A model generated the notes under the pieces. That model made no database searches. It worked only from the letters and a program-made list of their open reading frames with translations, and was not told where the DNA came from. This document shows positions 2,635 through 7,879 of a stretch of DNA of 8,113 nt, piece by piece. The DNA is from Microcaldota archaeon (GTDB lineage: Archaea; Micrarchaeota; Micrarchaeia; Norongarragalinales; UBA8480), in the NCBI GenBank assembly GCA_023247085.1, contig JAHFHC010000033.1, positions 1 to 8,113 on the forward strand. Reading direction: 5' to 3'. The stretch's first letter is position 1. Each line of letters starts with the position of its first letter. The translations under genes were made by a program, and so were the position numbers.

Positions 2635-5600
2635 ATGCTAAAGAAACCGAAGCACAACGCTAAAAGTATCCACCAAAAAAACAACCACAATTTACCCGCT
2701 TTATTAATAGCAACCGCACTTGTACTCTTACTAGCACTTTTAACACCAAGTTTAACTGGACTTCTAGAAGTCGGCGTTCCATCCTTAACGCAAACCGGTT
2801 CAGTCAGCTCAAACTTTTGTTTAACTCCCGTTGCGCCGTCAGTTCTATCAACTGACAGTAACCCCGATTTTGGATTATCTTTTAAAGACGATTCCAACAT
2901 TGAAACGGTTTACGCGCTTGACAAAAGCAGTCGAAAACTTAACTATTTTTCAATTCCAGGAACCTTGTGGCATTCCAAAACCGTATCTGCGGTTGCAATA
3001 TCTCGCTCATTACCTTTAAGCTCATCTAGTTTGTACACTATGGAAGTGCCGTTAAAACCCCCGACTTTTGCTGCTGTAAGTACCGGTAATTCAATTGTAT
3101 ATGCTAGTAAAGATGCGTCGTTCAAGTTCGTTAAGAAAACCGATGGTTCTGTGCTTACTGGTAATTTTACAGTTAGCACTCTTTACCAGCTAACTGAAAG
3201 CGCGCCAGCTCGTGCAATTGTTTTTGGCCAAAAAGATAAGGTCATTTATTTACTTTCTTTTGCTACGCCGTCAGGTAGTCCATTGTTAAGCATTGATAGG
3301 AGATGGACGTTAACTGGCGCGCCAATTCTTAACGCTTATGCAATGTCCGCTTCAACAGACCATTTGCTTTTACTAACCAATGACAGCAATATAATTCACT
3401 ATTTGTTATCAACAGGCTCCACGCCTATAGGCAGTGTATTACGATCAGAGGGGGATATGTACGGTACGCTTCGAGCTCGTAGAAATCATTTGCCTATGGG
3501 CTCATTAATGACTGCGGTTCTTGCACCGAAATCTGGTGCTAACTTTTACTTTGGCGCTAGCGATGGAAAACTTTACAGACAAATTTACACAAATCTAGGT
3601 TCACTGCTCGCGCCAGTTCAAGTTGCTAGTTTTAGTGGAAGAATTAAGTCAATTCAACAAACGGATGATAATACTTTATACGTTTTGACAAATACCGCAG
3701 TTCACAAATATTTAATTAGCGAGAATAGGGCAACTCAAGTATATGCTTTAGATTTACGCGCCTTAGTTCCAAGCGAATTAGATCACTTTATTCAACTAAT
3801 TATAAGCCCAAATAAAGAGTTATTTGTTTCAGCTAAGTTAGCCGGTTCAAACGGGGTACAACTCTTTAAAGTTACAAATGAATGTAACGCGGTTGGCCCG
3901 TCGCTTAAAACTAAGCTTTCAAGCGGATCAAATTCGAACTCAATTATTTTAACCGTTGTGAAGAATTCAGCGGTTAAACTAACCGCTACTGCTACAGATA
4001 GTGACGGCATTGCAAGCATTGAATGGAAACAACAATCTGGTTTCCCTTCAGGGGTTAAGAGAATAGACGGAGCCTATAAGACCACTAACTCTATTGAAAA
4101 CGTGCTAAATCTAAACTTCACTCAAGTTGGATCTTACAATTTTTCAGTAAATGCAACTGACAAAGGCAACCCAAAGAAAAGCACAGTTTCTACTGTCAAA
4201 GTAATTGTGTCAAGCTCTACAGCATCCCCATCTAACCCCGTTACAGTTGTCATAGACACTCCTCCACACATTATAAGAACTAGTCAAAATAAGCCGCCAG
4301 TGGTTTCAGAGTCACTGGTTAACTTATCAGTTAGCGCCGTTGCACAAAACTTGAACGATGAACTTACTTTTACTTGGAGTCAAACGACCGGTCCATCGCC
4401 ATACGGAGATCCATATATATTGAATCTAAAGAGTATTCTGGGCACTTATACTTCGGCATATCGCGTAAATTTAACTCAACTTGGTGAATACAAGTTTAAA
4501 GTTACAGTATCTTCCCATTCCTCTAATTTATTAGCCACTAAAGAGTTTACTGTAAATGTTGTTCCAAAAACAGCAGCAACTTTGGATGCCGCAGTAGCGA
4601 GTCAAGCGTCACCTGCTTTGTCTGTAGATGTGGTTGGTAATCAATGGGTTACTAGTGGGTCATCAGTTCTTTTAAACGCAACTGCACTTACAAACACTCC
4701 GAATGGACAATTGAGTTTCTCATGGCATCAAGTAGATGGGCCTCCGCTATCTGACAGTAGTATAATTGACGGTAGTTTAACTGACGCGTTTATTACACTG
4801 TCTTTAACCGAAATCGGTAATTATACTTTTGATGTTACAGCAATGTTAGATCCAAATTGGGACGCACCACTTTTAGCGAAAAAGACACTCGGAGTCGGTG
4901 AAGAAATAGCAGTTCCTAACACGCCATTTAAGATAAGAGTTGACCAAGTCAATGCTCCGGCTGGATCGAGTTCACTGCCATCTTGTAACATTGTAGTTTC
5001 AGATGCCGTGCACCCTCAAGTGTTAAAAGTAATGGATCAAGATAGCGCAGCGGTTCAGGTGTTTGGATCTATTTATGTTAAAGTGAGTGCAATTGCTTAC
5101 TCCGCAGTAGCGGGGGCAGTTAACACTTGTGAAGTGTCAGCAGCTTTTCCTTCTTTAATTGCTTTAAATCGAACAACGGTTTTTGTAGTTGATGAGATAC
5201 CCAATAATGTTGAAGCACTAGCAACCGCAGCCCCGGCTTCATGTGCATTTAACGCGTCGTGTACGTCATTTGAGTACTGTGTTTCTCCAGGAGAAGCAAA
5301 TTCAGCTTGTACGCCCCTATTTTGTAGCAGTAGCGAGCTTCCAAGAGACCACAAATGCGTGCCAGAAAGTGTGCAAAGCAGTGCAAGTAATGGAACTAGT
5401 GGTGTTGCGGTTAACTCGGGTGCATCAACCACCGGATCAACGGACGTATCGTCTGGATCAACTGGTGGCAATTTAGGGGGTAATACTGGCGGAAGTACTA
5501 CTACTAGTAGTGGCTCTGGCGCGTCAACGCGCAGTCCTAGCGGAGATTCAGGCGGAGCAGCCAGTAGGGGCAGTAGTTCAATTGGTTCAAATATAGAAAC

Positions 5601-5829
5601 CGCGGCAGGTGAAGCTAATGCGTTGGCTCCAAATGCAAGTGCAGTTGACAGGTTAAAAGGAGTGATTACAACCCCGCAAGGTGGCTTAAACCTTCCAGTT
5701 GTAGCTGGTGCAGTAATTGTCTTGCTATTGCTAGTTGCGGGTATTTATTTCATGCTAAGTAAGAAGAAGCCGCCTGTTGCCAGTGAAGAACAACCTGTTG
5801 AAGAAAATCCTGAAGAAAAAAGTAGCTGA
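2635..5829 (+). CDS. Large membrane-anchored surface protein: probable beta-propeller, three PKD-like domains, Cys-rich module, Ser/Gly stalk
   Basis: I do not recognise this 1064-residue protein as a named family. A basic N-terminus (1-19) precedes a hydrophobic segment (20-37), a signal peptide or anchor. Residues about 85-413 contain six or seven units of the type xLYVLTxxxxxxKYxL, for example near 154, 203, 244, 303, 347 and 395, suggesting a beta-propeller. Three related beta-sandwich units follow (about 425-526, 537-644, 660-755), each with a Trp strand (IEWKQQSG, FTWSQTTGP, FSWHQVDGP) and a closing strand of the form LTxxGxYxFxV, as in PKD/REJ-like domains. Next come a less clear unit (764-853) and a six-Cys module (Cys870, 876, 882, 892, 897, 908). 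A Ser/Thr/Gly stalk (911-990), membrane helix (1018-1041), KKK stop-transfer and acidic tail end the protein. At least a dozen N-x-S/T sequons lie in the presumed outer part. Adhesion, S-layer association or partner-cell contact are guesses. Codon choice looks looser than in the metabolic genes. Confidence 0.85.
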   Translation: MLKKPKHNAKSIHQKNNHNLPALLIATALVLLLALLTPSLTGLLEVGVPSLTQTGSVSSNFCLTPVAPSVLSTDSNPDFGLSFKDDSNIETVYALDKSSRKLNYFSIPGTLWHSKTVSAVAISRSLPLSSSSLYTMEVPLKPPTFAAVSTGNSIVYASKDASFKFVKKTDGSVLTGNFTVSTLYQLTESAPARAIVFGQKDKVIYLLSFATPSGSPLLSIDRRWTLTGAPILNAYAMSASTDHLLLLTNDSNIIHYLLSTGSTPIGSVLRSEGDMYGTLRARRNHLPMGSLMTAVLAPKSGANFYFGASDGKLYRQIYTNLGSLLAPVQVASFSGRIKSIQQTDDNTLYVLTNTAVHKYLISENRATQVYALDLRALVPSELDHFIQLIISPNKELFVSAKLAGSNGVQLFKVTNECNAVGPSLKTKLSSGSNSNSIILTVVKNSAVKLTATATDSDGIASIEWKQQSGFPSGVKRIDGAYKTTNSIENVLNLNFTQVGSYNFSVNATDKGNPKKSTVSTVKVIVSSSTASPSNPVTVVIDTPPHIIRTSQNKPPVVSESLVNLSVSAVAQNLNDELTFTWSQTTGPSPYGDPYILNLKSILGTYTSAYRVNLTQLGEYKFKVTVSSHSSNLLATKEFTVNVVPKTAATLDAAVASQASPALSVDVVGNQWVTSGSSVLLNATALTNTPNGQLSFSWHQVDGPPLSDSSIIDGSLTDAFITLSLTEIGNYTFDVTAMLDPNWDAPLLAKKTLGVGEEIAVPNTPFKIRVDQVNAPAGSSSLPSCNIVVSDAVHPQVLKVMDQDSAAVQVFGSIYVKVSAIAYSAVAGAVNTCEVSAAFPSLIALNRTTVFVVDEIPNNVEALATAAPASCAFNASCTSFEYCVSPGEANSACTPLFCSSSELPRDHKCVPESVQSSASNGTSGVAVNSGASTTGSTDVSSGSTGGNLGGNTGGSTTTSSGSGASTRSPSGDSGGAASRGSSSIGSNIETAAGEANALAPNASAVDRLKGVITTPQGGLNLPVVAGAVIVLLLLVAGIYFMLSKKKPPVASEEQPVEENPEEKSS

Positions 5830-7321: not shown

Positions 7322-7573
7322 ATGGTTTCAAAAGCAATTCCAAAAGTAACTGTGTACTCTACTCCCACTTGTCCATATTGTCACATGGCAAAGGATTTTT
7401 TCAAAAAACATGAAGTAAGGTTTAGTGACTACGACGTCAGCGCAAATGTGCCTAAAGCAGAGGAAATGGTGAAGAAAAGCGGCCAAATGGGCGTGCCTGT
7501 AATTGACATTGATGGAAAAATCATTGTCGGCTACGACGTACCCGCAATTAAAAAAGCTCTCGGAATGAACTAA
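7322..7573 (+). CDS. Glutaredoxin-like thiol-disulfide oxidoreductase (CPYC)
   Basis: This 83-residue protein is a minimal thioredoxin-fold glutaredoxin of the NrdH/YruB-like size class. The first strand VTVYST (9-14) leads into the redox motif CPYC (17-20). The cis-proline block GVPVID (57-62) and the closing DGKIIVGYD (64-72) complete the active-site face. Such proteins reduce protein disulfides or mixed disulfides in the cytosol, with electrons from glutathione, another low-molecular-weight thiol or thioredoxin reductase; the partner cannot be told from sequence. It appears to be a single-gene unit bounded by poly-T tracts. The ATG at 7322 fits because the fold starts only eight residues in. 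Confidence 0.92.
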   Translation: MVSKAIPKVTVYSTPTCPYCHMAKDFFKKHEVRFSDYDVSANVPKAEEMVKKSGQMGVPVIDIDGKIIVGYDVPAIKKALGMN

Positions 7574-7618: not shown

Positions 7619-7726
7619 AATAAAATAGCTTAATCTAATTATTACAGAATGAGAAAATTTATGGAAAATATTTAAAAAGTAAAAAAGAATAGATCAAAAC
7701 GCGGGTTGAGAAAAAATTGCGGTATC

Positions 7727-7760
7727 AAAAATATACGCGTTTGTTTCCGTATGTGTTTTT
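7727..7760. terminator. Bidirectional hairpin/oligo-T terminator
   Basis: ATATACG (7731-7737) pairs with CGTATGT (7748-7754) around a ten-base loop: seven pairs with one wobble on the plus strand, five solid pairs on the minus strand. T runs follow on each strand: TTTTT at 7756-7760 on plus, and the complement of AAAAA at 7727-7731 on minus. On the minus strand it lies just past the stop codon of the microprotein candidate. Confidence 0.4.
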
Positions 7761-7762
7761 AA

Positions 7763-7816
7763 TTATCGTTTTTTCTTTGCTTTTGCCTTTCCTTTGCCCT
7801 TTTTCTTTGCTGCCAA
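7763..7816 (-). CDS. Candidate 17-residue lysine-rich microprotein
   Basis: A minus-strand TTG-initiated frame reads MAAKKKGKGKAKAKKKR and then TAA; ten of 17 residues are Lys or Arg, the rest Ala, Gly and the initiator. GAGGTGA, a near-perfect archaeal ribosome binding site, ends five bases before the TTG, the best site in this window. The two alternative frames through the tract lack a start codon before their upstream stops. A GTG at 7825-7823 is in frame but lies inside the ribosome binding site. A weak upstream box and a downstream hairpin/T-run suggest a discrete unit. Function is unknown: such a peptide would be expected to bind nucleic acid or acidic surfaces. It does not resemble ribosomal protein eL41, which is Arg/Trp/Met-rich. 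Chance coding in a purine-rich tract is possible. Confidence 0.45.
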   Translation of the reverse strand: MAAKKKGKGKAKAKKKR

Positions 7817-7821
7817 TTTAT

Positions 7822-7828
7822 TCACCTC
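7822..7828 (-). promoter_or_regulatory. Ribosome binding site of the microprotein candidate
   Basis: Minus-strand GAGGTGA matches the archaeal anti-16S consensus and leaves five bases to the TTG at 7816. It is the main evidence that the tiny frame is translated. Confidence 0.5.
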
Positions 7829-7861
7829 GTTTTAAAACGATAATATCAGAATGCATCAATA

Positions 7862-7869
7862 GAATAAAA
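7862..7869 (-). promoter_or_regulatory. Possible TATA-like box of the microprotein candidate
   Basis: Minus-strand TTTTATTC would place transcription start near 7840, within the right arm of the inverted repeat, giving a leader of about 25 bases that includes the ribosome binding site. The match to the archaeal TATA consensus is modest. Confidence 0.25.
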
Positions 7870-7879
7870 GGCTATGCGT

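Follow-up and report, generated by a model that had tools for sequence, protein, structure and literature searches.

The window, that is, the whole stretch of 8,113 nucleotides that was analysed, represents an 8.1-kb contig, one of 36 in an archaeal genome of 892 kb. Positions 3-860 and 857-1750 harbor genes for succinyl-CoA-ligase-like beta and alpha subunits, which are followed by a citryl-CoA-lyase-family gene (1798-2583), and the segment from 3 to 2583 resembles a gene set for cleaving citrate in two steps (by citryl-CoA synthetase and lyase), which is notable for a small archaeal genome. Positions 2635-5829 encode a predicted surface protein of 1064 aa that carries a PKD-type domain, a stretch rich in Ser/Thr/Gly and, at its C-terminus, a membrane anchor. 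A glutaredoxin gene (7322-7573, plus strand) converges on a micro-ORF of the minus strand, the subject of this study, and the upstream neighbour of the latter was read by eye as the 3' end of a D-3-phosphoglycerate dehydrogenase-like gene. The features in and around the micro-ORF are as follows.

7763..7816, minus strand: micro-ORF of 17 aa, MAAKKKGKGKAKAKKKR, with TTG start and TAA stop, read from the sequence
7822..7828, minus strand: Shine-Dalgarno (SD) motif GAGGTGA, 5 nt before the TTG (spacer ataaa)
7827..7840, minus strand: perfect 14-nt palindrome TCGTTTTAAAACGA, directly upstream, overlapping the SD and identical in the congener G002
7861..7871, minus strand: TATA-like box CTTTTATTCT, approximately 46-55 nt before the start codon, conserved with G002
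7752-7748 / 7737-7733, minus strand: stem ATACG/CGTAT of 5 bp, 3' of the stop and followed by ATATTTTTGAT
7663..7732, minus strand: T-rich 3' region ATATTTTTGAT ... TTTTTTACTTTTTAAATATTTTC, conserved with G002

The first-pass annotation had described a lysine-rich frame of 17 residues with GAGGTGA five bases ahead of a TTG, and this is what lies on the minus strand. The TTG start codon occupies 7816-7814, the 17 codons are closed by a TAA finishing at 7763, and the product contains nine Lys, one Arg, no acidic residue and no signal sequence, with a net charge of approximately +10. The assertion that this is the best ribosome binding site of the window was borne out when strength was scored as match length to the complement of the archaeal anti-SD: the 7 nt of GAGGTGA are the longest match ahead of any ORF-initial start, and their length is tied in the whole window by one other site, AGGAGGT, which lies within a long gene. 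The frame had also been regarded as the only one of the tract with a start, which is correct for the minus strand, where no other frame has any, but not for the plus strand, whose frames contain TTGs. An alternative in-frame GTG, which overlaps the SD and would give a product of 20 aa (MNKLAAKKK...), is absent from many relatives, while the xTG-GCN ("MA") start, here TTG-GCA, is kept.

Flanking signals and the congener G002

The TATA-like box is a putative promoter of the micro-gene, and similar boxes are found approximately 35-75 nt ahead of the start in most relatives of the order, while the palindrome might possibly act as an operator. Judged from its sequence, the T-rich 3' region is a probable archaeal terminator, and TTGAT with a pyrimidine tract occurs after the stop in many relatives of the order. 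Of the hairpin and T-run that were initially thought to bound the frame, the T-rich tract stands, whereas the "hairpin" amounts to the 5-bp stem in a transcript that folds like its shuffles. Both arms of this stem are retained in G002, and the loop is altered.

The DNA search of relatives returned one long match, in which the congener G002 is 88% identical to the window (G000) across 221 nt. The 60 nt ahead of the start are nearly identical in the two genomes, the SD and the palindrome fully so, and the G002 product MAAKKKVKAKKGAKKKR has equal length and no indel, with the K9R1 charge exactly kept. Frameshifts or stop codons in relatives, named beforehand as grounds for giving up the gene, were looked for in this congener and none was seen. 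The upstream gene of G002 was read by eye as transketolase-like, unlike that of the window, and the glutaredoxin gene and a geranylgeranyl-reductase family gene are still close by in an otherwise rearranged neighbourhood. Because conservation of the ORF (approximately 87% identity) does not exceed that of its flanks (88%), this pair alone is no proof of coding. By the patterns used here, the micro-ORF is restricted to G000 and G002 in the window's family and is not found in G003-G006 or the incomplete G001. Most of the other short A-rich DNA matches inspected in relatives turned out to be chance or unrelated Lys-rich code and were discarded.

Recurrence in the order and class

The class to which the micro-ORF is assigned was defined by a GGTGA-core SD 3-15 nt before an xTG-GCN start and by a product of 7-25 aa with at least 45% Lys, a KKK run and no acidic residues. 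The window's micro-ORF belongs to it on both counts, with GAGGTGA 5 nt ahead of TTG-GCA and nine Lys and one Arg in 17 aa. A pattern of SD, MA start and KKK run picked up SD-led poly-Lys micro-ORFs in the majority of the order's genomes, several of them in two copies, as exemplified by MAKKKKKK, MAKKKKK, MAAKKKAAKKKGGKKKKK, MAKKKKGGKKKK and MAAKKKKSKAKKKGKKRR; MASKKKAVKKKPVKKKSAKKKR, MAAKKKAVKSKGKKKR and MAKKKTAKSKKKR come from other orders of the class. The peptides comprise 7-22 aa and are mostly MA-initiated, their Lys runs of 3-8 being accompanied by Ala/Gly/Ser/Thr/Pro/Val spacers, and the GGTGA core precedes the ORF in nearly all relatives.

The order's 29 genomes contain more than 20 GGTGA-led K-type micro-ORFs, of which nearly every one fits MA(x)KKK...KK(K/R) followed by the stop, compared with 2 weak cases (VSKKKILKR and MFVKKKQ) in 30 Mb of simulated second-order Markov DNA modelled on the same lineage. 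Reversed control patterns produced few matches or none. A looser pattern (GGTG..., any start) gained true members in G009, G010, G015, G016 and G026; it was rejected as a count on account of many chance matches and a reversed control nearly as high. Among the homopolymer-rich SD-led micro-ORFs of the fetched loci, 60 were of the K-type versus 1 for any other residue, a count drawn from loci partly chosen for Lys. The Lys codons AAG and AAA are used 127:54 in the micro-ORFs and 724:1098 in the long frames of the same loci; this AAG preference breaks A-runs, which fits selection for accurate translation.

A further line of evidence comes from synteny. A SprT/YgjP-like gene adjoins four of the ORFs, the compared neighbours being 42-46% identical to one of them, with Pfam scores for SprT-like or YgjP-like that stay below the cut-off. 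This gene was used to fetch loci in the order, so that the selection is free of Lys content, and a K-type micro-ORF was present in 8 of the 16 unbroken loci, in divergent orientation and 73-150 nt from the matched start of the gene. The eight span families f2, f3 and f5, and the one in G020 is longer (34 aa) and Arg-rich too.

Cys-bearing poly-Lys variants, namely MACGCCGPKKKKRAKKKK (beside MAKKKKKR), MAEKKKKGGCCK and MATKKKAKKKAVKKPAKKKSACCSCC, occur at L241 (1738-1868), L051 (1513) and L007 (minus strand), and could possibly constitute a metal-binding branch. In G007 (L060, 1099-1367), the archaeal RNase P RNA lies just downstream of the micro-ORF on the same strand.

Counterparts in bacteria and other archaea

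In a scan of 84,980 genomes, the matches listed included SD-led poly-Lys micro-ORFs of bacteria (Nitrospira, with MATKKAAKKKKK, Rokubacteria, Methylomirabilota, Brocadiales, Dehalococcoidia and Patescibacteria), of other DPANN archaea (Woesearchaeota and Aenigmatarchaeota) and of one euryarchaeal MAG. Chance or out-of-frame matches within real genes were set aside by translating each match, examples being a protein of 160-170 aa that recurs in Clostridia (by eye rplJ) and Hsp70-like proteins. One comparison was built around the following feature.

45420-45458 of G301:C1 (NZ_CP011801): micro-ORF MATKKAAKKKKK of N. moscoviensis

Of the 118 genomes belonging to the same family as N. moscoviensis, 51 match, mostly with the 12-mer type. 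The 17 distinct 12-aa ORFs of Nitrospiraceae show 30 synonymous versus 3 non-synonymous codon differences from the consensus, counted within codons 3-10, which the search pattern leaves free, and among sequences that are related rather than independent events; a wider Nitrospiraceae count of 65:3 took in codons fixed by the pattern, and 30:3 was used instead. Indels among the Nitrospiraceae ORFs measure 3 or 6 nt, and in Nitrospira a terminator-like hairpin immediately follows the stop. The class that includes the Rokubacteria genome G304 has the strict pattern in 57 of 95 genomes and the reversed pattern in 0, and the copies are often in tandem, approximately 90-100 nt apart. Tandem poly-Lys micro-ORFs with an SD each were likewise noticed in Methylomirabilota/Rokubacteria at L092 (near 3523) and L100 (near 4736; reverse-complement coordinates).

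Membership of the class across phyla is based on similarity of kind between short, low-complexity sequences, for which convergence is a possible origin. One locus from a record titled Nanoarchaeota (L102) has the same neighbours (serS-like, by eye) as the Levyibacteriota locus L166 and is probably a misbinned Patescibacteria contig.

The first-pass proposal of a short gene overlooked by annotation is supported by the frame and charge kept within the genus, the recurrence in the order and class, the synteny and the coding-type substitution in bacteria. It is very probable that the 17-residue Lys-rich frame represents a real gene, and its coding nature is well supported by these sequence comparisons.

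Proposed role and competing explanations

Because the 17-mer itself falls under the 20-aa limit of the NCBIfam and PDB searches, longer relatives were used instead: five relatives of 21-26 aa matched 0 NCBIfam families at E ≤ 10, one 22-aa relative matched 0 PDB chains at E ≤ 10, and a 52-aa class relative (L028) matched 0 Pfam families. Rfam gave no gathering-level match at the micro-ORF site, and in the literature searched, which comprised open-licence papers, such peptides, exact strings included, were not found.

We consider it probable that the locus is a stand-alone micro-gene making a free polyanion-binding polycation and that it is a member of the wider poly-Lys class. It would be monocistronic, with its own promoter, strong SD and T-rich terminator, and its translation, presumably at a high level, would yield a disordered 17-residue polycation. 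To judge from its composition, this peptide would most likely act as a free basic tail and bind polyanions through charge rather than through sequence, its chief partners being rRNA/RNP or chromosomal DNA. The functions suggested in the first pass, namely coating of nucleic acid, action at the ribosome or likeness to chromatin tails, were likewise derived from composition. A role as a substitute for missing histones was dropped: histones (PF00808) occur in 27 of the 29 genomes of the order, so the peptide is no replacement for them. It would resemble the archaeal histones of these cells in being basic and in binding nucleic acid, but it coexists with them and is too short for the histone fold. 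The H1-like bacterial proteins (chlamydial Hc1/Hc2, with AKK repeats) share its Lys/Ala/Pro alphabet and AKKK repeats, and the 52-aa relative L028 resembles such a tail; the H1-like proteins are far longer, however, and that relative is without a Pfam match.

Among the other explanations, a specific small RNP subunit, above all a low-complexity ribosomal protein like eL41 or bTHX instead of a general polycation, is unlikely and nevertheless deserves the first mention. eL41 is a Lys/Arg ribosomal protein of approximately 25 aa in archaea and eukaryotes, ribosomes do possess basic micro-subunits, and both eL41 and bTHX are very short, highly basic products of stand-alone genes that annotation often misses. 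The strong SD and the MA start with its GCN second codon, which suggest high expression, and the tandem duplicates of Rokubacteria would suit such a subunit. Nevertheless, eL41 and bTHX possess a specific conserved sequence and a fixed length, whereas nothing beyond MA and Lys runs is conserved here and the peptides may have anything between 7 and 22 aa; no curated family model of NCBIfam (relatives of 21-26 aa) and no PDB chain (22-aa relative) was matched, and in some genomes the micro-ORF was not found.

Another charge-based role, such as binding to polyphosphate or membranes or, like poly-lysine, action as a secreted antimicrobial, is improbable; cationic homopolymers do bind many anionic surfaces, but a signal sequence is absent from the peptide. 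Still less credence is given to a cis-acting leader peptide, in which translation of or stalling at the Lys codons would regulate the downstream gene by attenuation or by lysine/tRNA-Lys sensing. As in the trpL and hisL leader peptides, a short SD-led ORF is enriched in one residue, a single codon type is dominant, and in Nitrospira a terminator-like hairpin directly follows the ORF. What sets the present case apart is the downstream side, where no co-directional gene is found: the lysine-sensing leader is disfavoured because the downstream genes are convergent in the window (glutaredoxin, 7322-7573, plus strand) and in N. moscoviensis (L124, 175-1128 nt past the start, by eye lpxC). Several genomes of the archaeal class also have convergent SHMT-like and PRC-barrel-like genes (by eye), and co-directional genes downstream do not recur from family to family: the alaS-like gene, identified by eye, that follows the micro-ORF is confined to G007 and G013. 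A non-coding RNA or a purine-rich DNA tract with a coincidental frame is very improbable: although the non-coding flanks are conserved as well as the ORF within the genus, a structured RNA is disfavoured by the fold z of -0.03 against shuffles of the whole transcript and by the lack of an Rfam match at the site, the frame, start and SD are found again, together with the MA...KKK form, in different families and domains, synonymous differences outnumber non-synonymous ones 30:3 at codons that the search did not fix, and the indels are multiples of three.

Returning to the stand-alone micro-gene with a polycationic product, a broader proposition is put forward more tentatively, with belief and doubt not far apart: several prokaryote phyla may share overlooked, near-pure poly-Lys genes of 7-22 residues with strong dedicated SDs, whose products would serve ribosomes or chromatin as free basic tails. 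Frames this short are usually discarded by gene finders, and therefore the class, as met in the archaeal order and class, the Nitrospiraceae and the Methylomirabilota, would be missing from databases. If true, these genes, of repeated origin or very old, would rank with the smallest and simplest known to code for protein, and their product, a near-homopolymeric cation made by ribosomes, would have an unusually simple sequence, which bears on the minimal protein simplicity that selection can keep and on how archaea with small genomes handle the charge of their nucleic acids.
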